Positions 4,401 to 34,990 of a stretch of DNA of 35,034 bases are shown here, piece after piece. Origin of the DNA: Spirogloea muscicola (taxonomy: Eukaryota > Streptophyta > Zygnematophyceae > Spirogloeales > Spirogloeaceae); assembly GCA_009602725.1 (NCBI GenBank), contig WELB01000038.1, forward strand, positions 709,191-744,224, written 5' to 3'. The number at the start of each line of letters is the position of its first letter. The stretch's first letter is position 1. The notes under the pieces are model-generated. The model saw only the letters and a program-made list of their open reading frames with translations. It ran no database searches and was not told the DNA's origin. The translations under genes were made by a program, and so were the position numbers.

Positions 4401-5230
4401 AAAAGGAACGTAACTGTGGCACATTCCGTGGCACTTGCCAGTCCTTTACTACTGCAGTCTCTTTGGGGTCGACGCGGACCCCGTCTTTGCCCACAATGTG
4501 TCCTAAGTATGTCAACTCCGGCTGGTTGAAGACACATTTAGACCTCTTGGCATACAATTGGTTTACACGCAGCAATTGCAGCACTTGCCGCAGGTGCAGT
4601 ACGTGATCCTCAGGCAGTTTACTGAACACCAGGATATCATCCAAGTAGACCAGCACGACATCACACAAAAGGGGGCCAAAGACCTTCGTCATCACCGCCT
4701 GAAATGTGGCAGGTGCATTGGTTAGACCAAAGGTGAGCACCTTGAACTGAAAGTGACCGAGCGGCGTAACGGAATGCCGACTTCGGGACGTCCTCAGGGG
4801 TGATACGAATTTGGTGGTGACCACTTCGAAAATCTAGGAAACCAAAGACGTTAGCTCCTGCGAGCCGATTGAACAGGTCGTCGATTCGAGGCAAAGGATA
4901 CCCGTTCTTGACGGTGAGCTTATTCAAAGCTCTGTAGTCAATGCACATCAAACTACCATCCTTCTTCTTGACGAAGAGGATTTGTGCACAGTACGGCGAC
5001 TGGGAAGGCTCACTGTGCCGTTTAAGTAGCAGTGCCGCCACCTGGGACTGCATCTCCCGAAATTTGAGAGGACTCAGTCGATACATCCGACGGTACGGCG
5101 GCGAAGCGCCCGGCTCCAATTGTATGAGCCACGCCTCGATCCGGAGGCAAACCGTCTGGAAGATCATCCGGGAACACATCCAAAAACTCCGCCAACAGAT
5201 TGTCAAGAGCCGCAATATGTGAGGCCACAT
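4324..5230 (-). pseudogene. Gypsy reverse transcriptase, frameshifted (element 2)
   Basis: Recognisable reverse transcriptase blocks appear in order: [40 protein letters not shown], then after a frameshift near 4770 [16 protein letters not shown], the catalytic box VYLDDILVFSK, and LTYLGHIVGKDGV. This is the classic Ty3/gypsy order with the YxDD box. A second frame break near 4375 separates it from the connection/RNase H part. The normal role is copying element RNA into DNA; this copy cannot produce a full protein. Confidence 0.93.
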
Positions 5231-9715: not shown

Positions 9716-11147
9716 TGTAAATATCGTTTAAGCTGGTCCCCAACAGCCATCGCCCCTTCAGATCGCTCATTCTCGAATGAGGAGCAGCCTTACTCTGCTG
9801 CCGCAAGCTACCTGGCCGTAGAAACAGTTGGTTGGCCTCCATTTGAAGTCATGCGCTCCTTTTTGCCCTGGACTGGCATCGACCTGGCGCTTCCACCGTC
9901 TTCCACGTTTTTCGGCTTCTGAAACTTTAGTCATTATCTGGTGGCTGGCTTATTCACAGCGCTCGCCCTCCCCTTTGGTACAGCTGCTTATTCTACTGTC
10001 AAGCCATCGCTTCGTAAAGTAAATCTTGAGATCGTCATCGTGCCCATGCAAAGCTAGGCCAAAGGCCTCCCGACGAATGGCAAGTGGGCCTGGTCGCCAT
10101 CGAGCCTGACAGGGGCCAGCCCAATGCCAAACGTGGCCTATTTTCGCGCTCCGACCACGACCATTCTATTCCCCGGCCATGAAGGCGGGGCAAGAGGTTG
10201 CCAAAGCTGGACTACGCAAGGAGCTCGAGAGGCCGATCACCCTTTGGATATGATTTTGTCCCAATCGCTAATCGACGAGCCCTTGAGGTTTAATGGCTCG
10301 ACCTTCTCCAGCAGCTTGCACAACGGCGGTGGGCAGACGGTAGAGGCAGCAGGGCGAGCAGCCACGTCTGGGCCTTGAGCTTGCTACGCTAGGTATACCC
10401 CATGCGTCACTCCCATCCGCTGCAACCGTCAGAAGCTTCAGCCTTGCAGCTGCATGTTGTCTGTGCCTTCTTGGCCTTTGGCACATGCTTGTCCAATTAT
10501 GACAATCCAGCGGCCTCTTGGCCCCACCCAGCCCATTCCACGCTGTCACCTACTTCGCCCACGGCCGTCACTTTGGCGGCTGCCAATGCACAGTCACCAC
10601 TTGGCATGTTGTCTGAGAGCCAGCGCTCCACTACTGGGAGCACGACCAACCAGATCGGCGTCGCTGGATCGGAAAGTCAAGCACAGTGGCCTCACCTCTC
10701 ATTGGCAAGGCAGCCAGGATCGTAACGTTAGAATTGGCACATGCGTCTCTCGTTGCACAGTGCCGAAGTTTCAGATGTGGCTGCTCCTAATGTCGCTTTT
10801 GTCGACTGCATTTCCTGGTTTGGGAAGTGAGCCCAAAGTGCTGGGCCACCCCTGTCCACAGGGAGCGCTCCCACGGCGCACAAGGCTGAGTCAGGTTGTT
10901 ACCCAGCCCGACCTGCCGCTTCACTATACCATTACACCCACTACACAAGAACCCAAGGCGTGAGGCCAGACTAGCAAACCTGGTCCATGACTGGAAGGCC
11001 AATCATTTACCCTATCATTTAACCTCACTTGTGAACCCAATGTAGCTGCACAACCACCTGAACGCAGGCTCTACCAGAACGTCAAAGGACTAAACGCAAG
11101 GGTGGACGTAGACAATGAACACCCCCGTTGCTCTCGTAGCACCTTCG
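9716..11147. other. No gene recognised between the LTR cluster and the PPR gene
   Basis: No frame on either strand shows a known domain. A weak relative of the GGGCTGGC repeat lies at about 9938-9976 (ggctggcttattcacagcgc). A TGTAA on the minus strand at 10932-10936 is about 210 bases downstream of the PPR stop codon and could be that gene's polyadenylation signal. Confidence 0.4.
10932..10936 (-). terminator. Possible TGTAA polyadenylation signal for the PPR gene
   Basis: TGTAA on the minus strand, about 210 bases past the stop codon. TGTAA is the usual polyadenylation motif of chlorophyte algae. Five bases occur often by chance, so this is only a suggestion. Confidence 0.3.
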
Positions 11148-13655
11148 CTACAAATATAAGTAATTGTCAGACTTGTGCTCCTCTTTGCCGTCAAGATGGG
11201 CAGAATATTGAGGCCATGGAGTTGCAGCAGCAGGGGCATGCTGTAGGCTTTCAAACAACTCCACCACCTCATCTCTTAGCTGCTCATTGTCTCTGCATGC
11301 GCTCAGCAGGGCTCTCCGAGTGCCATCATCAGGAGCAATGCCCTCATTCACCATGTCCGCAAAGGACGCCCTCGCTCGATCGAACTCCCCGGCTGCAGAG
11401 TGTGCACTAATGAGAGTGCTGTAGGTGACAACGTTGGGAAGGACGCCAGCTGACTGCATCTTCCTGAATATGTCAACCACTTTCTCATAACGTGCCTGCT
11501 CGCGGTACCCTGTCATGAGGACGTTGTATGTGACTGCCGTGGCCTCACAGCCTTCTTGGCCCATGCGCTTGAGGATACTCTCGGCCTTCTCCATGTTGGC
11601 TTGCTTGCAGTAAGCATCAATTAGCAGCGTGTATGTGCTGACCGTAGGTCGACACCTGGCAGAGGAACAGCAAATGCAAGTCATTCAACAAGTCATACAT
11701 TGTGCAGCTCGTTCAGGAAAGCATCAACAGCAAGGCCACGTCAGCGTGATCAGCGTGAAGCTCACAGAGACAAACGATAGGCCAGTAGGAGAGCACATAC
11801 CGATCCTTGCTCATGCTTTTGAGAACGGCCTCTGCGTCCTCAACTTGGCCGGCTCTGCCATAGGCTTCCAGAAGAGCGGTGTAGGTTCGTGCCGTCGGCC
11901 TGCAGTACAAGCGGAAACAATTAACATATACATGAGCTTGAGAAGCTGCAGGTGAGGTAAGGTGCTGAGCCCTGGCTCGGTATCATAGTCTTAGGACTCA
12001 TTGGCCTGCTTATCGATAGTGAGCTGTAACTTGTAACTCCAATACCAATCTGTTCCATCTGTGATGAGATTAGTCTAAAACCATAGTCTCATGGCCCTCC
12101 AAGGGGCCCCGATCGCGCCGCTCGTCCACTCTTCCTCTGTCAACGTATCACCTGAGAATTTGAATGTAGGCTTGCTGCTTGATTACATGCACTGCATGCC
12201 AGAAACTACCGAAAGCACTAGGTACTCTGATACCTGATCTTGCATGCAAGCATGTCCTGGAAGACCGCATGAGCCTCCTCCGCTCTGCCCGCCCTGCCAT
12301 AAGAGCGGAGGAGGGATGTATACGTGTACACATCTGGTCGCACTCCCGCCTGCTGCATCTGCACAACATGTCATCGTGAAAGTCGATGAGTAGGCTAAGC
12401 TGATGAAACCAGTACGAGCGCAACCCTATTGTCAGAAGCAGCCTGACCCGAAACATGCAGGGCGAAGATTCAGGGTCCAGGGTGTAACCACGGACCTGAC
12501 GAAAGACGGCTTCGGCTTCCTTGGACCGCGCATCAGTGGCAAACATGCTGATGAGGGTGTTGAAGGTGATGTGGTCAGGTTCTAAAGCTTCAGCCTTCAT
12601 GCGTCGGAAAACCCTCATGGCATCGTCCACCCTCCCAGCCTTGCTGTAGCCATCCATGAGGCAGTTGTAGAGCTTCCGATCCGGGGCATGGAGGCCTTCA
12701 CAGACCATCTGCACGACGCGCTCTGCATCATCCATCCGTCCCCTCTGCAGGAGCACGAGGGGTGCCGGTCAGGCTTTCAGCTGGCAAGTAGCATCAACAG
12801 AAGGCTACAAGGATTGCACAGTCAGCGGCTCACCAGGCAGTAGCCCTTGAGGAGGGTTTGGTAGGTGATGAGGGTGGGAGCAGGCCCAGCAGCCCTCATG
12901 CGCTGCAAGAGCACCTCGGCATCCTGGAACCGGCCGGCTCGTGCGTACGCATCCAGTAACGTCGTGTTTGTGACCAGGTTCGGCTCAAACCCTGTGTCGG
13001 GAGAAGCTCGCCCCTTTGGCTTAGCCTCTACTAAAGTAGGCACCATGCTGTGGTCCTTTCATTCGTGCAGCACCAGAGGGATCCGATCCTACACCAACAA
13101 TGGGGTGCACTTCACACGGACATCACTAGCCGGAGCGAGCCTTCCAAGAGCTGACGGTGACAGGGGAAGCAGGGCCATCCCACCTGCCGCGGAATACCTG
13201 CAGCGACCATGGCCTCTAGCGAGCGCTCCGCCTCCTCCACCTGCCCGAGCCTCGCGTGCGCCAGCACCAGCATGCCATAGTCCTGCACCGCCAGCTCGAA
13301 GGGCTCCGCCTCGGAGCTCTTCAGCCACTCGTACACCTGCAGCCAGAGGCGAAGCCTGAGCGCCAGCCTGAGCGGCCGGCTAGAGGGAGAGCGCAGCCTC
13401 CAGCAGCAGGAGCTCCGGCAACCGCCGCCGTGCCGAGCCACTGGTTCCCGCTAGGCGAGGCATGGGGCGGGGACCTGGAGGAGGCGGTGCCAGGCGCGGA
13501 GCTGCTTGAAGCGCACGAGGACGCCGACGAGCGCGGTGCGGGAGAGCATGCCGGCGGCGCGCCAGCGGGCGAGCGCGGGCGCCGGCGCGGGGCCGCCCTC
13601 CACCTCGCGCATCATGCGCTCCCACTGCCGCTGCGCTTCCGGCGCCGCCGCCGCC
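11148..13655 (-). CDS. P-class pentatricopeptide repeat (PPR) protein, 5' end missing
   Basis: Seven exons on the minus strand join with matching phases: 13655-13475 (partial), 13336-13198, 12991-12834, 12744-12496, 12358-12234, 11899-11801, 11655-11148. They give about 485 residues. After a leader with FKQLRAWHRLLQVYEWL come about ten tandem 35-residue PPR units, for example YTALLEAYGRAGQVEDAEAV and YNVLMTGYREQARYEKVVDI, with typical spacing and no E, DYW or SMR domain. P-class PPR proteins bind organellar RNA site-specifically and act in splicing, stability or translation; RNA target and organelle are unknown here. The architecture recalls plant At3g59040-like proteins (from memory). The start codon and any transit peptide are lost where adapter sequence begins at 13656. 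All introns are GT-AG. Confidence 0.92.
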
Positions 13656-13688
13656 AGATCGGAAGAGCGTCGTGTAGGAAAGAGTTNA
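13656..13688. other. Illumina adapter sequence left in the assembly
   Basis: The string agatcggaagagcgtcgtgt followed by agg-aaagagtt and an N at 13687 matches the standard Illumina TruSeq read-through adapter except for one missing G and a degraded end. It sits inside the first visible exon of the PPR gene. On the far side no PPR coding continues. This marks a false join or an unclosed gap, not biology. Confidence 0.95.
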
Positions 13689-13780
13689 CGGCCTTCGAGG
13701 TTTTAGGGTAGGGGATGGGGCTTTCCCCACCGGCAACTCGTCCCACTGGCAGACCACGTCACCGGGGCGTTGGGAAGGCG

Positions 13781-13809
13781 GAGCTCTTCTTCCAGAAAGA
13801 GAAGAGCTC
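13781..13809. repeat. Perfect 10-bp inverted repeat
   Basis: gagctcttct at 13781-13790 and agaagagctc at 13800-13809 form a 10-bp stem with a 9-base loop. It lies next to a copy of the GGGCTGGC repeat (13820-13885). No rho-independent-like T tract follows, and a role as terminator is not expected in a nuclear genome. Confidence 0.6.
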
Positions 13810-13819
13810 GCCCATAGAG

Positions 13820-13885
13820 AAGAGAGGCTGGCAAAGCCAACCCAAAAAGAGTGGACAATGTCCAAAGCCAAAGAAAAAAGTGCCG
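13820..13885 (-). repeat. GGGCTGGC-family repeat copy
   Basis: On the minus strand this reads ctttggctttggacattgtc, then tttttgggttggctttgcca, in the same order and spacing as the copies at 16645-16712 and 5630-5725. It is diverged at several positions. Confidence 0.6.
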
Positions 13886-13964
13886 GACAAGGACTTCACT
13901 ACAAAGCACGAGACGGTGCGGAGGGAGATGCAGATGGATGCTCAGTATCCACGAAAGGAAAAGT

Positions 13965-14100
13965 GGCGATGGCTGTGACTGGCCAGCCCAACAGAACGGA
14001 CAAGCACCCAGTGGCCTCTTGAGTTGCTGTGTGCTCTGGCGCTTTTCTGGCCCCTCCGGAATTGATCCTTTTTCTGGGCTGGCCACTCACAGCCATCGCC
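13965..14100. mobile_element. MITE-like element with 26-bp terminal inverted repeats
   Basis: The 26 bases at 13965-13990 and the reverse complement of 14075-14100 differ at one position. Both contain ggcgatggctgtga and ggccagccca. They enclose 84 bases, making a 136-bp element without coding capacity, which fits a miniature inverted-repeat transposable element. The inverted repeat is the core of the repeat family found elsewhere in the window as single ends (5650, 8740, 14475, 16660). No clear flanking target duplication was found. Confidence 0.65.
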
Positions 14101-14962
14101 CTCTACTGAAGCGTTTCCCCTCTCTACCTAATGCGATTTGAGGCTTGGTGGCTTGTCCATAAGCAGCAAGCGGGCATTGTGTTCCAAGGCAGGGGCAGCA
14201 ACGAAAGCAGCCAAATAGTGCCGCAGGCCTCATGTATTGCTCTTCGGCCTGTATAGCTTCGCTGTAGCGAAGCTAGGCGCTTGCCTTGCATCTGTATGTT
14301 GTTCATGCCCTGGTTGCCGCCTTAGGCTTCTGGCAGACCATGATTTGCTGCTGCTGCGTGTCATTTAGATTTGCGGCTGAGGACTAGGGTGTTTGAGTGA
14401 CCAGCCATGGTGATTGCTTGATTTGCTTCCTGGGGAGATTGCACTTAAGGCCCCTTCGAACCTTGTCCGTTCTTTTGGGCTGGCCTTTCACAGCCATCGC
14501 CTCCTACTAGTAAAGGGCTCTCCTTCTCTTTCGCTTTAGGGGAGACCCTCTTGGCCTCCCCTTAGACGAAGCACTGTCACACGTGGAGGGTCCCGCTCAA
14601 CTGCCGCCAGGTATGGCGCTGCGTAGCCCACCAGGGCCGCCGCCGTCGCTGCTGTCGCCGCCACCGCCGCTGGGTCCCCCTGCCTCGTATGACAGGCCTT
14701 GGCGGCGCAGCGGCCACCAAGATGCACGCCCTCCGAGCCGGCTAAGACTCGTGGCAGAGCCAGAGCTCGGCACTGCGCCCCTTGGTGGCAGGCCTCGGCC
14801 CCTTTCTGAGCACAGGAAAAGGCTAGCCATGCTCTGTCGACCGCGAGGTCTGCCTCGCTACTCCGAGGAGCTGCATTGCCAGAAGCCACTGACAGCAGGT
14901 AACGGTGCCGTGCAGCATGCACGGCTTCTCAGGGGATCATAGAAGCCAGAAGGCAGCAGCTC
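14101..14962. other. Intergenic sequence, no gene recognised
   Basis: Apart from the repeat copy at 14448-14545 I see no domain on either strand. A short palindrome, agcttcgctgtagcgaagct (14257-14276), is notable: an 8-bp perfect stem with a 4-base loop. The region is downstream of the coiled-coil gene and should contain its 3' end. Confidence 0.4.
14448..14545 (+). repeat. GGGCTGGC-family repeat copy
   Basis: Contains ggccccttcgaaccttgtcc, then ttttgggctggcctttcaca and gccatcgcctcctac. It is very like 14049-14110 and 8709-8800 in order and spacing. The partner inverted end is not visible nearby, so it is a single-ended or truncated copy. Confidence 0.65.
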
Positions 14963-17230
14963 TCAGGTCTTGGACCTGCTCCGCGTGGTCACGCCAGTGG
15001 CCAGACTATCTGGTAGCTCCTCGTTGGTAACCAGCGAGAAGAACTGGAGCCGCTTCCGCAGCCGCCTGTGTTGGTGGGGGGGGCCCCACGGCGTCGTTGC
15101 CTGCTGGCTGCCGCCACCATCCCTCTCTTCAGCGGCAGCGGCGTCATCTTCGATCTCGTCAGCACGCACAGCAGCCCTTGCCCGAGTCCTCTGCCACCGC
15201 ACCCGCACAAGGTCGTCGTCATCCGAGTCCTCCGAGTTGTTGCCGGCGCTGGGGCTCCCGCTAAGCCAGGCCAGATTGCGGTCACCGCCCGCCGATCCGC
15301 CCACTGTCGCCGCGAGCTTGGGGCCAGCCTTGAGAACTGTCAGGGCCTTGGCGCACATCTCGTCGCCCATCGACAGGGGCTCTCGCATTGTTGTGGCTGT
15401 GGTGGCCATGTCACCACACTCCCGCGTCGGGTTGGTGCCCAGCGCCCAAAGCCGCGCGCTCTGCGCCAGGTCTGGCAGCTTGGCTGGCGAGCAAGACGCG
15501 CTCCGAGTCCTGGCGGCCCGGCCATCAGCAGGCGTGCTCCTCCCGAGGACAAGGACGCCACCTGACGGCTCAAAGCCGCCACTTCCATCGTCCTCTGTGG
15601 ACGAGGCTGCAATGCGGATCGCCTCAATCTCCCTCCGGAACTCCTCGCGGCACGCCTCCAGGTCCTTGCGCACGCGCTGCAGCTCCAGCTCTTTCCGCGC
15701 TATGTCCTCCGACTTCTCGGCGAGGCCGGAGCGCCGCTGTGCACGCAGCAGCAGGAGCTCCTCCCACATGGACTGCGCCTCCGCCGCTGCCACGCCTTCT
15801 CGCTCACGCGACTCGCACAGCTCCAGCTCCAAGTGGCTGCACCAAAAGCAACTCTTTAGGTTGCCTGATCCATCTGGTGTAGGAAAGCCTAAAGTGGACT
15901 CTATTTCTACAATGTGTAAGACTTGATAACCCAAAGCTGTCAATAATGTCAGAGTGCCTCAAGAAGAGGCGGATTGCAATGGAGCAATGATGAGGTGCAA
16001 GGAACTCGAGACAAATCGCCTGAGATATGCTACAAGTATCTGAACTGAATATTTCTTGCTCTCGTTGGCCAGTGCCGGCAATGCTGCGAGCTGATAACAC
16101 TTGAACAGCAGGGCCTATCTGGCAGCTGCAGCCGAGGCTGGCATTGACGTTCTGACATTGAGCTGCAGCCACTTGCAGGCCGCTGACAGCCATGGCCCTG
16201 GCAGCAACTTGAGGAGCCCCACGCGGCATCAAGTGCTGGCAGAACCTGCCTATGCAAGCAGCGCACTACCTGGCAGGGGTTCTTGAGGCTCACCTGGACC
16301 TCACTGCCAGGTCCTGGACTTCACACCGGAGCTGTCGGAGCTCATCCTCCCGCTGCGCTTCACGTAGCAGGAGGGCCGCCTCCCGAGCTGCCGCCGAGGC
16401 CCTTAGGGCCTCACAGCTGGCGTGCTCGTCCGCGGTGGCCTGTAGAGACTGCACACGGCTCTGTGCCGCCACCAGCTCCATGGCGAGCGCGTCGCGCTCC
16501 GCACAGAGGGCCTCCAGGCCAGGACTCTTCTCCTGCTCAGCCTTCTCCTCCACCTCCGCCGCCGCGGCCACCATTGGAGACGACACCGGCTCGGCCGACG
16601 TCTGCGAGTCCTGCTTTAAGAAGGAGTGAGCTCCTCAGAAGGGGGCGGGGGCTGTGAAAGGCCAGCCCAGAAAAAGTGAACAGGGTCCAAAGAGCCGAAA
16701 GGTGCCAGCTTGGGAATCGTCTTACCACTATCGTTAGGAGTTGCTTTCTTGGTAAAGTTGAGCGCAAGGTAATGGCCTCTATGCGACAAAGAAAGGGGTG
16801 TAATGTCAAGGTTTGTTTGGAGTACTACAGCCTCTAGCAGATTGTTTTAACTGAAGATAAAAGAACCACACCTGCGGCAAGATCTTCGCAATCGAGCTCC
16901 TGGCATCAGTGGCGACAGCAGTGGCCGCGGCAGGGGTGCTGCCAGGATGCGGTTCCCGCAGCGGCTCCTCGAGCCGCCCGCTGCCGCCATTGACGAGGCT
17001 GAGGTCCTCGTCGCCACCCTGCGAAGGTGTAGGCGGCGGCGGCGGCGGCACGCGGCCGAGGAGGAGGTCCCGCTGGGAGGCTGCAATGGCGGCGGCGAGC
17101 CCCGTGCAGTCGTGGAAGCCAAACGTGAGGCCGAAGACGGCCTTGCCGCAGCCTTCGCAGGTGACGAAGGACGAGCCGGCGCCGCCGCCGCCGCCGGCGG
17201 CGCCGGCGCCGGCGCGCGATGCAGGAGGTG
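14963..17230 (-). CDS. Coiled-coil protein with N-terminal CxxC/HxC motif, start unresolved
   Basis: Three minus-strand exons join in phase: about 17230-16872, 16610-16294 and 15836-14963 (stop TGA 14965-14963), all with GT-AG introns. The N-terminal part has SSFVTCEGCGKAVFGLTFGF followed by HDC, a C-x2-C...H-x-C metal-binding-like motif resembling the tail motif of some plant HMG-box proteins (from memory). Next come proline-rich sequence, a long charged coiled coil over exon 2 and the start of exon 3 (for example EDIARKELELQRVRKDLEAC), an acidic run (NNSEDSDDDDL) and a basic C-terminus. No enzyme domain is visible. The first ATG in frame is not reached before the sequence overlaps exon 1 of the divergent isoleucyl-tRNA synthetase; the only in-frame ATGs (17411, 17498) lie antisense to it. 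The start is therefore uncertain. Confidence 0.65.
16640..16712 (-). repeat. GGGCTGGC-family repeat copy in an intron
   Basis: On the minus strand this reads ggcacctttcggctctttgg, then accctgttcactttttctgg and gctggcctttcacagccc. It lies in the first intron of the coiled-coil gene and is one of the best-preserved copies of this end of the repeat. Confidence 0.7.
17175..17207 (+). promoter_or_regulatory. GC-only hairpin just upstream of the IleRS start codon
   Basis: A perfect 12-bp stem (17175-17186 with 17196-17207) of pure G/C with a 9-base loop ends 11 bases before the ATG at 17219. If it is in the mRNA leader it could slow ribosome scanning. The same bases encode a Gly/Ala run in the divergent coiled-coil gene on the other strand, so low sequence complexity is an alternative explanation. 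Confidence 0.4.
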
Positions 17231-20200
17231 GCGGAGGGGCGGCTGTACAGCTTCCCCGACGCCGAGCTGCGCGTGCTCGCCCTCTGGGACGCCCTCGACG
17301 CCTTCCGCACGCAGCTCCGCCGCTCCGAAGGCCGCCCCGAGTACGTCTTCTACGACGGCCCGCCCTTCGCCACTGGTGAGGCCTCCTCTCTCCTTCCGCC
17401 CGCCTTCGCATCGCTGCGACTCGGCGGGCTTGCGCTGCAGCCGTGCCACCCGTCCTCCGCTTCGGCCTGCTGCTCCTCAATCGCCGGTTGAACGGCAAAG
17501 CGCTGCGTGACGCCGTGCCGGGCGTGGGCAGGGCTGCCGCACTATGGCCACATCCTTGCGGGCACCATCAAGGACATCGTTACTCGCTACAAGGTGCGGC
17601 ACACGCCGCCTGAACCCCAAATCTTAAAAACCAAAGCACCGGTTCTCGTCAGGCACTTTTGAGGAGGCGCAACCTTCCGCTATTACCTTTTTCCCACACC
17701 TCTTCAGAAGGCACTGGCAGTCCTGGGCAGCCTGTCTCGGAATGGCACTCACAGCTCATTGAGAAACCGAACATAGTGAAGCACAGAGTAGAGCTGGCCT
17801 GCAGCGCTGGACTCAGCCACTTGTGGCTCTCAAGACGGTCTAGTACCTACAAGAGGACAGAGCTGACCCCCCCCTTCCACTCGACTCCACTGTGGACGCA
17901 CTCACTTGCTCGCCTCAATAGTGCTCACGCAAGTGTGCTGCTACTGGTGCAGACCGCCACTGGGCACCACGTGACGCGCCGCTTCGGTTGGGACTGCCAT
18001 GGCCTTCCAGTGGAGTACGAGATTGATCAGAAGCTCAACATCAAGACGAAAGATCAGGTCAGTATATACTGATGAGTTAGTAGCTGCTAGAGCTCGCTCC
18101 TCCATGCAAGTTTATACTGCTTCCTGCCTTGACCACTCTGTAAAAGTTGCAGCTTGAGACAAGAGGCTGCTAATCGCTCACCTTTCTGTATGCGTGATGC
18201 AGGTGCTGGAGATGGGGATTGAAGCATACAACGAAGAATGCAGGAGTATTGTGATGAGGTACTCCAAAGAGTGGGAGAAGGTCATCACGCGGTGTGGGCG
18301 GTGGATTGACTTCCAGAATGACTACAAGACCATGGACCCCGAGTTCATGGAGACAGTCTGGTGGGTCTTCAGTCAGCTCCACCAGAAGGGGCTGGTCTAT
18401 CGTGGCTTCAAGGTCAGTCCCTTACACGAGCCCAAGTCGCGACAGCTGACCTGTGACCCAGTGACACATGGCAATGTGTAGACAGTGTTGACATACATCA
18501 TAACGTCCACAATTCTGGCCAGCTCTGCTTGCAGCTGCATGCACCGTCCTAGCAGCTGCATATATCATATTACAACAGTGTGTGTTTTATGAGAAGCCCG
18601 TCGCACTTTCAGGTCATGCCATACAGCACTGGCTGCAACACTCCGCTCTCTAACTTCGAGGCTGGCTTGAATTACAAGGTATTATCCAATGCTATGGGCC
18701 TGACTACTCATGACTCTGAGTTCTGACACAAAAGAGGAGAACCTTCCATTTGACCTGTCAGGCCTGAGAGTTGTTGGGGGGTTCTTGTCTGCAAGTCATG
18801 CATTGTACATAGTGATGACATTCGAAGATGGCCGAGCAGCTCATTCTGAATGAGGGCAAGTGCTAGCGATTGTGCTGCAAGCTTGCCAGTATTCAATGGG
18901 TCTGATATATCTCTCGTGCTGCAAGCTAAAATTGCCGGTATCCACTGGGTCTGAAACATCAGGATGTTTCAGACCCAGCAGTGATGGTGAGCTTCAAGCT
19001 GCTGGACGATGCAGACGACGCCTCTCTCGTGGCTTGGACCACAACCCCCTGGACATTGCCCAGCAACCTTGCTCTTTGCGTCAATGCAAGGCTTAGATAT
19101 GTCAAGGTTTACTCTCTCTCACTTTTCATGTTGTTACCTATACCGTTGCCCTCCCTGCGAGATTTATTTTCTTCTCGACAGAATATATACCTGATCAGAA
19201 TAATCGGCAGTGTGCAGCCTGACCCTTTTACGCCTTCTTGTCACACCTTTGCTAGCCCTTCAACCATGCAATTCCCGCCTTGGACATGTGATGGTGGTCA
19301 TATCTGCAAGAAGCGGACGTGTTCTGGTATTGAGTCTGCTTATGGACCATACGTGCAGGTCAAGAATAGAGAAAGTGGAGAGGTGTTAATAGTAGCAGAG
19401 TCAAGAGCATCGCAGCTCCCTGCAAAAAGGAGAGCCAAGAGTGAAGCAGCCAAGCCTGATGCAGCACATCAGACAGCTAACGGAGTAGTGGCAGAAGGAA
19501 AGGATGCAAAGAAGGGGCCAACCAAGAAGGAGGGCAAGAAGAGCGACAGCGCCATGCCTCAACAACCAGCAGTGGATGCGTACACATATGAGCTGCTCAC
19601 CACTGTTATGGGGTCTGATCTGGTGGGAGTGAAGTAAGTATCTAGTTCTCGAGACACCCTCTGAGTACTGGAACAAGTAGTGAGGAACGCAGAGGCAGGT
19701 GTGCAGGAGCTGTGTCTCTGACATGGAGATGTTACTTTTGTGCAGATACAAGCCCCTTTTCCCATACTTCCAAGAGCTCTCTGCAGTGGCGTTCAGAGTC
19801 GTGGCCGATGATTATGTAACTGACGACAGTGGCACAGGAGTCGTGCATTGTGCTCCTGCATTTGGGGAAGATGACTACCGGGTTTGCCTTGCACACAATA
19901 TCATAACGAAGGTAGTCGATGGCTCCCTTTCGATCTGATCTTGCTCAGAGAGCACCTCATGTGCAGATGCTGGGCCGAAGCAGTGACAATCAGGACAGCT
20001 ATGCGTGCTCCTTTACCTTGATACCCTGCTCATTTAGTCGTGCAATACAATCACAATCGAAGTTCCCTCGAGACAATCGTGACATCGGATGTTGTTGGGT
20101 GGAAGGGCGAGGAGTTGCCAAATCCTGTTGATGGAAGTGGTGCATTCACAGCGAAGGTCAGCGATTTTGCTGGCCGGTATGTCAAAGAGGCGGACAAGGA

Positions 20201-23200
20201 CATCATTGCAGCAGTCAAGGTGAGAGTGAACTGTCCACCTTGATCTTGTCCTTTGGCTGCACATACTCTGGACACAATTATCAGCTCAACTGAGAAATCT
20301 TATTCTGGTAGCAACGGAATGCTCAACTTAGGCAGACTTTCGACATTGAGTAAAAGCAAGAGCATGATGGAAGTGCATTCACCTGCTTTCAAATGTTCCT
20401 CAGAAGGGCATGCATATTTCTGCAGGCCATGGGGAGGCTTGTCAGTTCCGGAAGCATCATGCACTCCTACCCCTTCTGCTGGAGATCTGATACTCCCCTT
20501 CTCTACAAAGCAGTTCCCAGCTGGTTCGTCTCGTCAATTCTGGCAACCCCTCCATCATTTGTTGGAATGTCGTATGGCCGATGCAGTTTGAAATTATCCT
20601 GGGTCCGTCTTCTTAGGGGTGGAGTCTGACATCCTTCATGACTGGAGAACATGCTGTCATTCAGGCTCTGGAGATGTAGAGAGTCTGAGTTACAGGGTCC
20701 TTCTTGCACTACTCCAGGTTTGTTGCTGTGGAGAAGATGAAAGACAAGCTGCTGAAGAACAATGAGCAGACGTATTGGGTGCCAGATTATGTCAAGGTAA
20801 CACAAAGAGAATACACTTGTACTATTCGTATTATTGCACACATTATATGCTCAATCCAATGGTTTCTGTCACGAGGGTACATATATTCAATCCGACAGCT
20901 CGTTGCTTTGCTGCTCATTTTTTACAAATTATTGGAAAGGCTGTTAGCAAGGGTTGAACTTTGTGTAATATGATTTCAGGACAAACGTTTCCACAATTGG
21001 CTAGAAAGTGCAAGAGACTGGGCTGTCAGTCGAAGTCGATTCTGGGGCACGCCACTTCCGATCTGGGAAAGCAAAGATGGCCGGGAAATCCGAGTCATTG
21101 GCTCCATACAGGAGCTTTATGAAGCATCTGGCTTCAAGGTATCCTGACATATATGTTATGAGCTTGACGACTCCTTACTTGTTCAAGGCTTTTGTTGTGG
21201 AGTTTTGTGTTCGATAGAGTATAATTTCAAAGCTGGGGTTCAGTCTACCACGTCTACAACAATGGAATAAACATCCTCTAGTATAGCAGCTTGACTGCGC
21301 TGCTTCTTCATCAGCATGGATGAAGTAGCCAACTCTTTGAGCTACAGCATGCTGACATTCTTGTTTGATGCAGGCTACAGACTTACATAGGCACCACATA
21401 GACCATGTCACAATTCCTTCAAGCCGCGGCCAAGAGTTTGGAGTTCTCAGAAGAGTTGAAGAAGTAAGGCACCACAAATTTCTGCTATTACCAGTTTGTT
21501 GCGTTGCTTCTTCTGTGCTTTCCTTCATTGAGCTGCAAATTCACTGGAGCTCATTCACAACTTTTGCAGTTGGGTGCTTTCCCAGGTATTTGATTGCTGG
21601 TTTGAGAGTGGCTCAATGCCTTATGGTTATATACATTATCCATTTGAGAATCGGGACCAATTTGAGCACAACTTTCCAGGCGACTTTGTTGCTGAGGGTC
21701 TCGATCAGACCCGTGGCTGGTAATCAACCGCAAGTCAAGCACTGCCACTGTCAGGAAGTTAATTGTCCTGGTATGAATGCAGTGGTTGTATTCTCATGGG
21801 ATGCTGTGCCTGTCTGGTCATGCACTCAATTTGCCAAGCTTTCTGTGTTACCAGAATTGAGTTGCTGCCCGCACTGCACACCACGAGTCTAGTATCCTCA
21901 ATGTGTCCCTTTGCCTGATTCTCTGCATGCTCTGAGTGGTCTTTGTGAGATTGTAGGTTCTATACATTGATGGTGCTTGCAACCGCACTGTTCGACAAGC
22001 CAGCATTCAAAAACCTCATCTGCAATGGGCTGGTGTTGGCTGAGGACGGCAAGAAGATGAGCAAGCGGCTTAAGAACTACCCTCCTCCCCAGGAGATTGT
22101 CGACGAATATGGAGCTGTGAGACCCTTCTCTGCAGCTTCAGATGCTGCATGCTGCACTCTGCTGCCCCTCGACTCGATCTCTGACCCCAAGTTTTGAATC
22201 AGGTCCATACAGTTGCTATGATCCTCTCTCTGACACTGCTGCCGAATATTGTACTCATCAGGATGCCATGAGGCTGTACCTGATAAACTCTCCTGTCGTT
22301 CGAGCAGAGCCTCTTCGTTTTAAGAAAGAGGGTGTCTTTGCTGTTGTGAGCGCCTGCTAAGCCCTTGTAATTGTACACTGAAGCTCATATTATCTTTGTC
22401 AATGCTGAAGAGATCCTTGCAATTTTGCTTTGAGAGTGAGGACTAGTCAGTGTTGAGCTGTTGGCACATTATCTATGCGGGGCAACTGAGGTGTATCTTA
22501 TGTTTCGTCGAGTTGCGGCCTAGCATTGACTGAGCTGAATATCAGAAGGCTTGCATGGCTGTGTGACAGGTCAAAGACGTGTTTCTGCCTTGGTACAACG
22601 CCTATAGGTTCCTTGTGCAAAACGCTTTGAGGCTTGAGATTGAGGGACTTCCCCTCTTCCAGCCTGCAGACCCCACCACATTGGATGATTGTGTGAACAT
22701 TCTCGACCGGTGGATCAACTCAGCAAGTAAAAGCGTGGTTCGGTTCGTGCGAGTAGAGATGGAGGCTTATAGACTCTACACTGTGAGTGGATGGAGTCTG
22801 CATGTGTGCAATGCTTGCATGAAAAGCAGACGAAATTTGTCCTTTCTTCAGTCCTCCTTGGGAATATTAATCCTGCACAAGAATCAATACTGCTGACCAG
22901 CAGATGCTTTGACGCTGTGAGTTCTGATCAAGCATGACATATCTTGCCAGGAGTTTGAGTTATGAGCTTGTCAGATTGCTTGACATTACTGCGATAATTT
23001 TTCTGAGCAGGTGGTCCCATTCCTACTCAAGTTCGTCGACAACCTCACAAATATTTACGTGCGATTTAATCGGAAGCGTCTAAAGGGTCGTACAGGCGAC
23101 CCTGACTGCCGCATGGCCCTTTCCACCCTATTCAATGTACATCTCAATCCATTCTACATTTCTGCACATGATCTTAATCAAAGCCTTCTGCTTTTACAGA

Positions 23201-26200
23201 CACCCAGGTCTATCTCTGAATTACTTGGACCATCACTGTTGGGCTAGTGGGACCAATACTATTGAGCAGGTTGCTGTTCTGAAGTGGTAATACGCCATGG
23301 CAAGTTGAGAACATGAAACATCATGGCAAGACAAGAACAGAATATGATATTTTCGCATCGTTCGTGCAGGTTCTTTTGACAGTGTGCAAAGTCATGGCGC
23401 CATTTACTCCATTCTTTTGCGAAGCTATGTACCAGAATCTGCGGAGGGCTCTCCCACCTACCGCCGAGGAGAGTGTGCATTACTGTGATTTCCCAGAGTC
23501 CTCCGGTGAGGTACGCCTAGCCATAGCTGAACAAGTGCCCAGCACAGCCTGCCTGCCAGATCCCCGTTGAGAAGCCATGGTCATTGGACAGTAAGACTCC
23601 TGGTACCAATATGTTGCAAGATTACTTGTCCAAAGCACTGATGTGGGCCAGAGTGGTGGATTCCTGCAAGTGCAGAGTGACTCTAGAATTGAGCAGAGCG
23701 TGGCCAGGATGATGACAGTCATCGACCTCGCTCGCAATACGAGAGAGCGGCACAACAAGGCCCTCAAAACACCCCTAAAGTAAGCCCAGGTAATCTTGCT
23801 GTATGTCAGCTAAGACTTGTATGATCTGCAAGCCAAGAGGTTGTGGCAGCAGTCCTTACGGCTAGCTCTGCTGTTGGTGCCAGGGAGATTGTGGTGGTGC
23901 ATCCAGACAAGGACTTCCTGGAGGACATCACTGGTCAGCTTCGCAAGGTACGGAACGCATTCATGACATGGCAGGACATGTGCTTGTCGCTCTTACCATG
24001 GGGCCTCTGACACAAGCCCTGAAACAGTACGATGCCCCAATTGTTGGAGTTGGTCGCAAAGTGCGAAATGGCTCTATTGCTGCGCCAAGCTTGCTTCACA
24101 AAGAGCTGCTGACCAGAGTCGGATGCTACTCCACGTTGGTGCCTCCTGGTTGGCTGTGGGGAGTACTGGCGCTGAGATTACACTCTGGTGTGCAGTATGT
24201 GGAGGAGGAGTTGAATTGCAGGGCTATTGTGCCGTGCTCTGACCCTCTCCAATATGCGACTCTGAAGGCAGAGCCAGACTTCAGGCAAGCCGCCGATGCG
24301 CCAGTAATATGGAGTTCGCGCTACATGTGTCTCCAAGATAAGGTGCAGTGCACAGTATAAGCCATAAGAGTGTCTTCTCAAATCTTGCGCTCACAAAGGC
24401 TGATGTCCTACACAGTGTACTGGGAAAGCGCTTGGGGAAGGCCATGGGTGCTGTCGCCAAGGAGGTCAAGGCTATGGACATGGAGTCTATCCTTGCCTTT
24501 GAGAAGGCTGGGGAGGTAGATATTGCCGGATACAAGCTCAAGGCCGGAGAAATCAAGGTCTGTCGATTATCCAACACTTCCTCAGAACCAACTGTTGCTA
24601 TGCAGTGCTCTCGCCACTCCCACCCTCATGCATTAATATGTCTACGAGAATAACAAGGTCACAGGAATATGTCAGTTACGGGATGTAAATGCTCCTTGAC
24701 AACAACAGCTCAGCTGACCAAGTCTTGGCCTGGCAGATCAGTCGGGAGTTCAAACCCCCAGCAGGCGTTGATGCTTCTGGCCTTGATGCTGCTACTGATG
24801 GTGCGCGGCTTTCTTCATCCTCCTCAACTTTGGATTGGGATTGGCACTGTCCTGTAGCTGCCTGTGAGCCAAGAATGTGTCACATGCAGTTTGTCATTCA
24901 CAATCCTTGTCATTCACGATCCTGCTTTCACAAGCTGACATGTTGAACATGGGGGTCTCATTTGTGCCAGGGGATGTATTGGTGGTCCTTGACCTTAGGC
25001 CGGATGAGGAGCTCGCTGATGCCGGAATTGCTCGGGAGGTAGCATGTCACTCCGTGACTGTCTCAATGCAAATGCAAGCAGGCACGGAGCAGGCACAGTC
25101 ACTATGGATCTCATGCATGTCAAGTCTTAGGACGGCTTCAGATGTCCTTGGTGATGGGAGGTATACTGCTGTGTATTCTGTCTCCGCCAGGTTGTGAACC
25201 GGGTGCAGAAGTTGAGGAAGAAGGCCGGCCTGGAACCCACGGACACTGTTGAGGTCTTCATAGAGTACCTTGGGCCCTGTGAGGTGCTGAAGCGTGCATT
25301 AAGTGCGCAGGTGAGAACGTCTTGTTTGCTTCAGGTAGTGAATTATGGATGCATCAGAGGCTATAACTTGAAGGGGCCCCTGGCCCAATCAGTGGCCGAG
25401 TCGGCATATTGCGTGACGAAGCTTTGTGTCTCCCCTCAACTAGGCTGCGTACATTGTTGAAGGGCTGGGGTCCTCCCTACTCCCAGCGAGCTTCCTTCTT
25501 CCATCGGCGGTACGTGATAAGCTAGCCAGCACTGCGTACATAGGGCAAAGCAAAGCTCGCCTTTTCAGGAAAGCTTGGTTAAAACCCGAGCAGCAAGCGC
25601 CTGGATCTCTTTCTCTGTGCAGCCCTTTACTTGCCTTTTTGCTTGTTACCTTCATGAGGCAGACAAGTCATGACAACACCCTTTGCATACCACTGTCAAC
25701 CATGATGCATTTGTGCTGGATGATGTTCTTTCGGTTCAGGTTCAGATAGCAACTGAGCACTACAGCGGAGTGGGGGACTGCAGCTTCAAAATTCTGCTTG
25801 CACGCCCCACTTTGTTCTTCAATCGGGACACTATCACGAGGACTTGTGGAGGTGGGCACTTCTGCTTGCCGGTGCCGTGCATTATCTGCACATCAAGTGC
25901 CTTCCTCATTGATGCTGTCCTCTTGCTGTCGATGTCCGCGGTTTTGGCACATCGCTGTAGAAGCCAGAGCTTTCAGGGCAGTAAATGCTGGGGTTGTCTT
26001 CTCCTGATTGGGACAGTGTCAAGATGGTCTATACTGCTTGGCGCAGGTAACGAGGCGCACGCGAGCAATGTGATGGTAGCCTTGTGCGCTCGGGATTGGG
26101 CAAATCTGCAGCGGCACCTGGCCAGCCACGGCGGCAAGGTGAGTGGGGCGCCTGGGCATGACTCTGGGGTGCTGTGTTGCACGCCCGTGGTTGCATTCGG

Positions 26201-26386
26201 CTGCAGATGGGCAGGCATGCCGCTGATGCACAGGCGGGCTGTGGGAGCACGCAGATTGCAGTGGCGGTGGATGGCCAGCCGGCGTATGAGATGGAGGTGG
26301 GCCGCGACTTCTTGGCGAGCGTGGGCGATCACGTGGATCGCATGGAGGAGGGGTTGGAGGAGGAGGAGCATAAAGCGGCGAGGTAG
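17219..26386 (+). CDS. Cytosolic isoleucyl-tRNA synthetase, 30 exons
   Basis: Class I synthetase charging tRNA-Ile in the cytosol. Exon ends (start-end): 17219-17375, 17532-17593, 17953-18057, 18203-18412, 18613-18678, 18963-19106, 19359-19633, 19746-19911, 20106-20219, 20426-20523, 20718-20796, 20980-21138, 21374-21463, 21586-21719, 21957-22116, 22262-22345, 22570-22782, 23011-23136, 23370-23510, 23676-23779, 23884-23947, 24196-24284, 24416-24557, 24737-24800, 24971-25038, 25191-25310, 25444-25509, 25740-25851, 26047-26138, 26207-26386. All phases agree, giving 1227 aa, normal for the eukaryotic family. HIGH-type HYGH is at residues 56-59, the CP1 editing domain follows ([31 protein letters not shown]), and KMSKR is at 653-657, then the anticodon-binding region. 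The acceptor of exon 9 (20106) is the least certain. Intron 22 uses a GC donor. A lysine-rich insert lies in exon 7. Confidence 0.97.
18871..18960. repeat. Two tandem 45-bp intron units carrying inverted copies of the exon 6 start
   Basis: Units start at gtgctgcaagct (18872 and 18916) and end in gggtctgatatatc (18898-18911) and gggtctgaaacatc (18947-18960). The second end is the perfect inverted copy of the start of exon 6; the first matches it at 12 of 14 positions. Confidence 0.75.
18945..18978 (+). promoter_or_regulatory. Perfect 34-bp palindrome centred on a splice acceptor (IleRS intron 5)
   Basis: Bases 18945-18960 and 18963-18978 are exact reverse complements (16 of 16), with only the intron's terminal AG (18961-18962) between them. 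In the pre-mRNA the acceptor would lie in the loop of a 15-16-bp hairpin. Exon 6 (GAT GTT TCA GAC CCA...) is conserved coding sequence, so the intron side is the derived copy. Confidence 0.85.
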
Positions 26387-27402
26387 CTGGGGGGGAGGAG
26401 CTCGTCAGGCACAGGGCGGGCAGGCAGGGGCATGCAAGGAGGACCACTGCGCCTGGATCCGGAGGAAGAGCAGCATGCATTGTATAACAGAGGCCTGAGC
26501 GGCCAAGCGCAATGGAAGCCAATCTCAAAAAGGTGGACTGGCCGCAAAAGGTTAGCTCAGTTGGATGGACAACGCAATGAGGCAAGCCCGTCCTTTGTCC
26601 TTTGTTTCCGATTGTAGGAGGGAAAAGACGGGAATTGAGTAATGCAAGGCCACAAAGTGAGCTTTTCTAGAATGGGGCGTGGCTGTGACATGCCATCCCA
26701 AGAAACACAGAGCGGCCAAGTACGAAGGCAATCTACATCTACAGATGTCAATGGCCTACTGCTGAGGTTGCTCGTTGATGCCTGGATACTGGACGGCAGA
26801 TGCCAAGCCCTTCCGCCCCCAACCAGAGCACGCCCGGCTATCTGGTGGAAGTGGAGCGTGTATGAAGTGATGGAGGGCCTGAGTGGCCAATTATGTAGGC
26901 AAGCACATCGACGGATGTACATCACCTGCTGCTAAGCCGACCCCGCCCAGTAGCCACTAGTCAGCATGCAGAGGCCGCTCACTGATGCCCGAGTGACGGA
27001 CGGTGATTGACAGGCCCAATAGCCACTGTCTTGAGCTCGAGCAGCTTTCTGGGCTAGCCCTCGCCCCCTTTGGAAGAGCCAACAACTTCTTTCTGCTTCA
27101 CAGCAAGCAAGTATGAGCCTGAGCTCGCTGTGAGCAGGCTTGCATGACCTGGTGCAAGGAGCGGTTTGGGTGCTGAGTGACGGAGGGCCTGAGTGGCCGA
27201 GCACAGAGGCGAGCACATCGAACAGCTGCACATCGTGGGACAGGTGTCCGTCGACTGCTGCTGGCTGACCCGCTCAGTAACCACGAGTCAGCGCGGAGCG
27301 GGCAGCCGGGCGGCGCGACGGCTGCCGTCGGGGCGTCGTCAGAAGGCCCCGCCAACGCCGCGGCCCCGCCCCTCCGCCGCCCTCGTCTCCGCCCCCTTCG
27401 CC
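26387..27402. repeat. Intergenic region with diverged ~110-bp repeats, no gene
   Basis: Related units begin with ggagggcctgagtggcc at about 26871 and 27182, share aagcacatcg / gagcacatcg, and end in a cag-tagccactagtcagc / taaccacgagtcagc block. An eroded relative lies at 26707-26785 (agcggccaag, atctac, ggcctactgctgagg), and a fragment (gcctgagcggccaag) at about 26492. A GGGCTaGCC stretch near 27048 resembles the other repeat family. The region must hold the 3' UTR of the synthetase gene and the promoter of the next gene; I see no coding frame with a known domain. Confidence 0.55.
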
Positions 27403-29649
27403 ATGGCGCCGCCCCGCGCCNATGACGCCGCCCGCGCCGTCGCCGCCGCCGCCGAGGAGCCGGCGCTGCTGGCGGAGGACATGCCTCTCCGCCTCTCCTC
27501 CGCGCCCTGGGTGCGTGCGCCTCGATGCGGCCGGGCTGCCGGCCCTGCGGCCGTCCCAGTGCTCCCCGCCACTGCGTGCTCTGAGCGCCGCCGCTGACAT
27601 GCTGCGGCACCTGCGCCTTCTGCTCTGCAGAGCTGTGGCCGCTACATCGCCTACCGCCGCTTTGAGGTACGCCGCCGCCGTCTCCTGCTTGGTCATGGGG
27701 CCGCGGTCGGGAGGAGGGGAGGGCCCAAGGCCTCGCCTGAGCTTGACGATGCTCTATCTTGCACGAGGCATGCGCTCTCAACTCCTGCAACTGACACCGT
27801 CACTGTCTGGTGAAGCAGCCGGAGACGGTGGGCATCCTTCTCCGCGGAGGCATGACCTTCGCCATCCGGCGCCACCCGGCAGTCCTCGTTCTCCATCATG
27901 CCGACATGGCCTTCCTGGTGGAGTCCATGGCCAGGCTCGACGAGGCTGAGGATGCCGAGCTCTGTGCGCCCCTCCACCTTGGACCCCCTCTACCGCCCCC
28001 CGCGCCTAATCTCTTGTTCATGTGCACGATTGCCAGTCTCTCATCCACCGGCGGCTCATTCGTCTGTCAATCTGCATCATTTGCCATTCGGGTCACCAAT
28101 TGGCCCTTGATGCCCGGCTCTTCATGATGCGCCTTCCTTAGGATCGTCCTCCTCTCATCTTCAGTTACAAGCCTCGCTCTTGGCCTTGGCAATCTGCTGT
28201 CGAGGACTTACTTGCATACCTTTCTTGTTGCAGCTTCGCAGGCTGAGTCACTTTTCCATGGTCTACCAGAGCTTCCTTTCCCGGTCCCGGCCCAAGCTGT
28301 TGAAAGTGATGACAAGTCCTTTTCCACAGATGGAGCTGAGGATAGCATCATCAGATTCACCAACAATCGCCTGCAAAAGGCGCCCAAGGAAGACGTATCT
28401 CCAAGGCACTTTCTCGGAAGCTCCATCGCTAGAAAGTGGCAGCTCGATGAGCAGGTGCGCACTGCTGTTGCCAGAGCCCGTGCCTCTGGCTCGATGCAAG
28501 CCCCATGCTCTTTGCTGGGGCTCAGCATGTGCTCATTCAGATACTGCCACTTGGATGCAGGGAGCACAGCTGATGACCGACATTGTGGAGCAGATCACAT
28601 GGTTGCGCAACCGATTTGTTGCCAAGCTCCCTGAGAAAGTGCTTGGGACAGGGCCTGACCACGCAGTGTACCAGGAGGTCGGGCCGTCATTGATTGAGCA
28701 ATCTGTGCAGGACTTAGCTGAGGAGCAGGCTGAACCATCGTTTGGCCCCCTCTTCATGGCAAGCGCCTCCAGCAGCAGTGATGCTCAGAGCAGCTATGTC
28801 AACAGCCTCGATGGCCCTGCTTCTGGCTCCAATGTTTTCTTCATCCCCAGCCGCAAATCGTTGAGCACTTTGGGGAGCCATCCCAAGCATACACGTGAGC
28901 CATACCACAGCTGGGTCCCATTGCTTCTGCTTACAGACAAGCTGCGAATGTCTTTGTCATCGTGACTACTGGCCACATTCAAATGGCCGCGCTACCTTAA
29001 TTTCGCACCAGTGGGTATTCCTTGCTGGGGTTGACTGTTTGATAAGTAAGTAATAATGTGGTGTTGACTTGTGAGCAGTGGACGTCGTGGACTTTGTGAG
29101 AGCCTCGGCCACAACTAGCATGGTGGGCACCATCCTCGTGGGGTTGTCATTCTCGCTCCTCTTTGCGCTGCTCTTCTCCTGCACCGCATCAATGCTGCAG
29201 TGGGCAGACTCCTCGGATACATATGGCAATCACGCTCCTCTCCTTGCTGTAAGTACCCAACTGATGTTGCCTCTGCACACTCTCGAGCCGTCACTATCTT
29301 CCTCTGTACATGGTGCAATAGCTAGGCTGTGTGGGGCAGTCTGTTGCCATCTCTCTTGACCCTAAATCCTACATATTTGCGGCTGGTGCTTTACAGCCTT
29401 CTTGTAGCAGCCACGTGCCTCCGCTCTGGGGCTTGTTGGCCACTTAACAGCTGATTTTAGGACAGTCACCTGACAGAGGACTATCAAGTCGAAAAATGAC
29501 TGGTCAATCACTGCTACACTCTGCAGGCGGCATTGGAGGACAGTGATGAAGATGATGAGTCGGACCAGGAAGATGATCAGGAGGAGCACGTGGATGTCGT
29601 TCTGCAGTACGAGCCCCCAGAGGAGGGCACTGCAGGACCCCGTACGTAG
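27403..29649 (+). CDS. Unrecognised protein with one C-terminal membrane segment and acidic tail
   Basis: Seven exons join in phase: 27403-27510, 27631-27666, 27819-27963, 28234-28454, 28561-28894, 29079-29248, 29527-29649, giving 378 residues. I do not recognise the family. An N-terminal domain (about residues 30-95) contains SCGRYIAYRRFE and GGMTFAIRRHPAVLVLHHAD, then a Ser-rich polar middle. A hydrophobic helix at about residues 296-316 (MVGTILVGLSFSLLFALLFS) predicts a single membrane span, and the last 40 residues are highly acidic (ALEDSDEDDESDQEDDQEEH). No signal peptide is evident, so a tail-side membrane anchor is likely. The donor of exon 3 was chosen because it restores phase. One codon near the start (27421-27423) contains an N. 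TGTAA follows the stop by about 110 bases. Confidence 0.7.
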
Positions 29650-29757
29650 TGGGATTACGCTGCGCTTTGACTTCTGTATAGACCTGCAGCAGTATATTAT
29701 TCGACATTCACTATATTGATGGAGTACCCTCACTGGCAGAGAATATGCCAAAGTATG

Positions 29758-29762
29758 TGTAA
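29758..29762 (+). terminator. TGTAA polyadenylation signal
   Basis: TGTAA lies 109 bases past the TAG stop of the membrane-protein gene, the usual signal and a usual distance in chlorophyte algae. It supports both the stop choice and the lineage inference. Confidence 0.5.
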
Positions 29763-30295
29763 TGTGATACAGACCGATAAGCAACAGCTTTCACAACGTT
29801 GACTGCATTGCACCATTGTATGGTGTATTGCTGAGTTCACAATATTTGCAGCGCTCGAGAAATGCAGAATGTGTGAACAGCAGGTTCAGATCTTTGAAAG
29901 CATACCGAATGATAGTACAGAGCATCGGAACAAGCACAAAAGCAGTGATGCTCAGGCACATTCCATCATCGCCTTTTGAGCCTTTTGGCTATCCAAAAAG
30001 GTCCTCCATCCAGCAAGGATAATGACTGTCCTACCAACATGCCCGCCAGGTCATTGGCTACTAACGTTTTGGTAGCTTACTGCTTGCATGTCCTCCACAA
30101 CATAACTTTCCTGGTCACTTGTATGTCGAAGCAGCCTTCTATAGCAGACATGACTTTGTTTTGTGGCTCCTATACTCTACTTCTGCTCCCGTGTGAGGTT
30201 GCCGAGTAGAATGTACTTCATCTGTTTCGAGAAGCAACAGCACCGTTTTAGTGTTTTGCCTCTTCCCTCTACGAGATAACAATTTCAAACAGAGG
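29763..30295. other. Intergenic region between convergent genes, nothing recognised
   Basis: AT-richer than the surrounding exons, with no domain in any frame. It should contain the 3' UTRs of the two converging genes. I found no TGTAA on the minus strand past the SSADH stop in this stretch. Confidence 0.4.

Positions 30296-34990
<4,695 letters not shown>

Follow-up and report, generated by a model that had tools for sequence, protein, structure and literature searches.

The 35,034-bp stretch of the Spirogloea muscicola genome analyzed here (hereafter the window; C38:709191-744224, where C-numbers denote contigs of one 153-Mb genome assembly with 471 contigs) in all likelihood contains an assembly artefact with two faulty joins. 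Judged from sequence comparisons, an Illumina adapter seems to mark the end of a contig with the remains of a pentatricopeptide repeat (PPR) gene, and the interval between this gene and an isoleucyl-tRNA synthetase (IleRS) gene appears to have been filled with a stretch of contig C160 (Table 1).

Table 1. Features of the window and our reading of them. Positions count from the first base of the window.
Feature	Position	Strand	Remarks
Remains of a PPR gene, several exons	11151-13655	-	Outer span, not exon limits; frame open to the adapter
Illumina TruSeq adapter remnant	13656-13686	+	One G absent from the adapter at 13656-13685; 13686 is T
Single N joining two contigs in the scaffold	13687	n/a	
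Probably misplaced block of 3,493 bp	13688-17180		Same sequence as the reverse strand of C160:32044-35536
Headless duplicate of coiled-coil gene SM000160S02517	14963-17180	-	First 102 bp including the start codon missing
Second join, unmarked	17181-17210		Within a (GCC)n stretch
IleRS gene, many exons	17219-26400 (end approximate)	+	Start codon at 17219
Second single N, used as control	27421		Correct join by colinearity

The adapter itself is readily recognized. AGATCGGAAGAGC occurs exactly at 13656-13668 as the sole match in the window with up to one mismatch, and 100 shuffles gave a mean of 0.06 matches, with at least one match in 5 of them. Local alignment to the 58-nt TruSeq adapter sequence spans 13656-13685 with a single gap, i.e., a G absent from GGG, and scores 28 compared to 13 to 18 for 20 single-base shuffles, which is beyond chance. 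The following bases are a T at 13686 and an N at 13687. The original prediction of an Illumina adapter starting at 13656 and ending in an N is therefore confirmed, though its statement that most of the remaining adapter is present went too far, with the match covering 31 adapter positions or about half of the 58 nt. A chance match is ruled out by the shuffles for the window and by reversed-pattern controls for the whole assembly (see below). Among the titles listed in a literature search, none reports adapter in the S. muscicola assembly. More generally, a table note of PMC10898089 counts adaptors among the contaminants that are common in submitted genomes.

From the base after the N (13688) through 17180, the window is identical to the reverse strand of C160 at 3,493 of 3,493 bp. 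This is what would be expected of a misplaced duplicate, as the homoeologs compared in our analysis are 83-93% identical and those of the block, on C91 and C53, show 89% and 85% identity, respectively (compared over 14400-17180). The surroundings of the block on C160 are shared with these homoeologs: the 3,964 bp of C160 sequence compared beyond 35536/35537 are matched in full on C91 and C53, with no such match on C38, and a search with this outer sequence gave 7 additional matches of only 37-64 bp. C91:444034-444740 aligns with C160:36086-35413 at 85% identity and unbroken across 35536/35537, while past the other edge of the block C91 has an 850-N gap and then continues as the counterpart of C160:31178-30665 at 91%. 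On C53, block and outer sequence keep their order and orientation, and the other block edge is an N gap; this contig is weaker support than C91 because ca. 12 kb separate its block from the outer sequence. The C160 context is thus present on both sides of the block in C91 (on one of them after the 850-N gap) and on one side in C53, and this outer context common to the three contigs points to C160 as the native place of the block. Given that the right flank of the adapter is an exact copy of C160, its two flanks are very probably not neighbors in the real genome, as had been predicted.

The opposite edge of the block lies inside a gene. On C160, the coiled-coil gene deposited as SM000160S02517 (s160:31942-34261) starts exactly at the ATG at 31942 and crosses the block's right edge with its start codon outside the block. 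From this ATG, the frame on C160 passes through a (GCC)n stretch (MSDCGCSRRR...), as does the deposited model. On C38, the gene's first 102 bp are instead replaced by the sequence upstream of IleRS, and this second join, situated at the (GCC)n, has no N. The bases at 17181-17202 also occur on C160 just past the block, while the exact match to C33 starts at 17198 and that to C147 at 17210, from where both run into IleRS (followed to 17235). C33 turns into N at this (GCC)n, ahead of IleRS, and therefore, with at least 3,011 N upstream of the gene, cannot show the true interval; on C53, too, the corresponding edge of the block gives way to an N gap. The contig numbers used here follow those of the deposited scaffolds for s33 and s160, and we infer the same for C38.

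Among the alternatives to an assembly artefact, the one that fares best is that only the adapter is artefactual and that 13688-17180 is a true, extremely recent segmental duplication by which 3.5 kb of C160 arrived between PPR and IleRS on C38. A coiled-coil gene lacking its start would then face IleRS head-to-head, with the adapter merely adjacent. While 100% identity over 3,493 bp is expected of a fresh copy and the right-hand join without N would also fit, we consider this scenario improbable, because the assembly is weak at both ends of the block (the left one has the adapter and N, and the right one the (GCC)n at which C33 and C53 give way to N), the copied gene is interrupted at this stretch and has no start codon, and the block's three homoeologous places are already filled by C160, C91, and C53. 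The IleRS gene, like the block, has three homoeologous places, and a triplication in Spirogloea muscicola is mentioned in PMC9065682 (citing Cheng et al. 2019).

On the other side of the adapter, the PPR gene is recognized by Pfam matches on 12148-12756 (PPR_1, 1.8e-19; PPR_2, 5.4e-16) and has a homoeologous copy at C147:301841-304633 with 87% identity. The original prediction had placed this coding sequence to the right of the adapter, but it actually lies on the left (up to 13655, minus strand) so that its upstream side abuts the adapter. Beyond this point, the frame does not run on into PPR-like genomic sequence and instead reads the adapter codons (LFPTRRSSDL) up to a stop at 13705. In C38 as well as C147, the frame stays open as far as the adapter, which suggests that the gene lost a 5' part; truncation, as originally proposed, is therefore likely, though no more than that, as no complete copy was found. 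A genome search with the PPR region returned two matches, C38 itself and C147, and hence no third homoeolog. The homology search gave at least 32 matches, mostly to plant PPR proteins and many of them without a name; none among the matches listed bears the name S. muscicola, so that the length of the missing 5' part could not be estimated.

For the IleRS gene, the joined exons have their best match in the deposited model SM000033S12418 (locus=s33:848870:857947:-), and the start codon on C33 is at 857947, exactly as in this model. Its homoeologs on C33 and C147 show 88% identity over 17190-20500. C147 carries PPR and IleRS in the same order and orientation as C38 across a gap, with window positions 10876-13686 corresponding to 304633-301810 and 17175-19604 to 294457-292001 (the end of the fetched stretch). 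Between the two genes, C147 has an adapter, 121 T, a gap of 1,388 N, 5.7 kb of repeat-rich filler, and a single N. This filler (294600-300300) gave at least 339 repeat matches, and its placement could therefore not be judged. The linkage of PPR and IleRS thus appears to be supported, with the support coming from a scaffold of the same assembly project. The gene order PPR - coiled-coil - IleRS had originally been called unproven, and this holds true for the coiled-coil gene, which belongs to C160, while the linkage of PPR with IleRS survives through C147. The true DNA between PPR and IleRS of the C38 copy was not found in the assembly.

The adapter of the window is not an isolated case. Searching all contigs with 17-mers of both adapter arms and up to one mismatch, we found 45 sites (37 exact), of which 23 belong to one arm (17 exact, 6 with one mismatch) and 22 to the other (20 exact, 2 with one mismatch); reversed-pattern control 17-mers had 0 and 0 matches in the same assembly. 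We inspected 43 sites, i.e., all 23 of the first arm and 20 of the 22 of the second (the exact ones), and 40 of them sit at a marked contig end, with N following at once, after a few bases, or behind a homopolymer run. For the first arm (n = 23), what follows is a single N, immediate or a few bases away (11 sites), poly-A or poly-T and then N (9), and an N run directly (2), with ordinary sequence at one site (C126); for the second arm (n = 20), it is a single N (5), a homopolymer run and then N (11), and an N run (2), with ordinary sequence at two sites. Adapter followed by poly-A is the signature of reads running off short fragments, which does not account for poly-T after the adapter. The remnants vary in length where they are cut, and the G+C content of the 60 bases (or the fetched part of them) preceding the sites is 60-92%. 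At the three sites with ordinary sequence (C126:126461, C16:1102837, and C137:176943), no N is present within the fetched 3,017, 241, and 241 bp, respectively, and these 3 of 43 are a point against reading the adapter as a contig-end artefact. The sites on C16 and C137 have common flanks and look like homoeologs. At C37:88225 and C46:292103, 1,640 positions are identical up to and including the adapter and poly-T, which is probably another contig placed twice.

Several of these sites can be compared with a homoeologous contig. C14 and C36 have their adapters at corresponding positions, and an alignment of 1,666 columns through this point shows 91% identity, while C63 aligns with C33 across its adapter point at 83% and C164 with C279 at 89%, with both flanks aligning in the latter pair. 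C33 and C279 lack the adapter at these places, yet have a single N 28-31 bp away (C33:172759 and C279:144426); the agreement is therefore one of order in two scaffolds and not of unbroken sequence. It seems that breaks in homoeologous contigs fall on shared GC-rich positions. The order kept at C14/C36, C63, and C164 contradicts the idea that every adapter site is a false join, and the adapter by itself is no proof of one, a reservation being that an N or adapter also occurs close by in the partner scaffolds. With the same reservation, this conserved order is what speaks for a second alternative at the window site, namely that the adapter stands in for a small unsequenced stretch between truly adjacent flanks. 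We regard this as very improbable, as no homoeolog joins PPR to the block (C147 has adapter, poly-T, and an N gap at this place) and the block has different neighbors on C160 and C91.

The only homoeolog that we found for the adapter site of the window is C147:301810-301840, where the adapter occupies the homologous point and lacks the same G. The adapter tails on C38 and C147 are alike although the two copies differ 12 and 19 bases before them (C147 is ca. 11% diverged), which counts against an assembly artefact as the best explanation and leaves the tail in both contigs unexplained. Even so, the possibility that the adapter-like sequence is genuine genomic DNA, to which its presence at homologous points of the diverged C38 and C147 and likewise of C14 and C36 would lend itself, can practically be dismissed in the face of 45 sites compared to 0 matches of the reversed controls, remnants of varying length, 40 of 43 inspected sites leading into N, and its absence from the homoeologous place on C279. 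A genuine genomic repeat is likewise contradicted by the contig-end pattern.

A single N is not in itself the mark of a false join either, a generalization ruled out by the second single N of the window: the sequence around 27421 is colinear with C33 and C147, whose homoeologs of 27422-30000 beyond the IleRS copies show 85% and 83% identity, respectively, in the same order and orientation and with similar spacing (compared over 17190-20500 and 27422-30000). Elsewhere in the window, 13800-13953 is a member of a dispersed repeat family of ca. 155 bp with at least 37 other genome copies at 91-96% identity and has inverted repeats nearby at 13965-14100; it is possibly a small transposable element. 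The minus strand further carries a reverse transcriptase fragment at 4661-5230 (Pfam RVT_1, 5.4e-07) and an open frame of 374 amino acids at 33866-34990 whose match to aldehyde dehydrogenase (E 0.001) does not reach the Pfam cut-off. The window starts directly after a gap of 2,127 N (C38:707064-709190).

Our preferred reading of an assembly artefact with two faulty joins would involve the following steps. An untrimmed Illumina adapter probably stayed on the end of a contig that halted in GC-rich DNA, as indicated by its identity, its contig-end context, and its recurrence. During the building or gap filling of C38, the gap between the PPR and IleRS contigs would then have taken in the 3,493-bp stretch of C160, for which the identity and native context of the block argue. 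This stretch most likely entered via the shared (GCC)n that closely precedes the IleRS start codon, after which both sides may have been abutted with a single N beside the adapter.

The genome of Spirogloea muscicola is among the references used in studying how land plants originated. The artefact is ordinary in kind and its recognition is of practical use only. Very probably, the divergent coiled-coil/IleRS gene pair, the 3.5 kb upstream of IleRS on C38 that would be taken for its "promoter", and the extra gene copy are all artificial, and users of the C38 scaffold would be misled in studies of synteny after triplication, promoter work, and gene counts. The unmarked right-hand join is more misleading than the join at the adapter, and the (GCC)n illustrates that a false join can be located 3.5 kb away from a visible warning sign.

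UniVec/VecScreen and NCBI FCS are established screens for untrimmed adapter ends, and the case described here resembles the adapter carry-over of other short-read assemblies in that TruSeq sequence sits at the ends of contigs, adjoining N or homopolymer runs. It does not differ from them in kind, but the adapter of the window additionally flags a 3.5-kb block duplicated from a different scaffold. Mis-scaffolding or false gap filling is likewise a known kind of error in polyploid genomes with GC-rich low-complexity stretches, and the window shares with it an identical stretch in two scaffolds that is joined via a (GCC)n. What sets the window apart is that one edge of this stretch carries no N or other warning sign.
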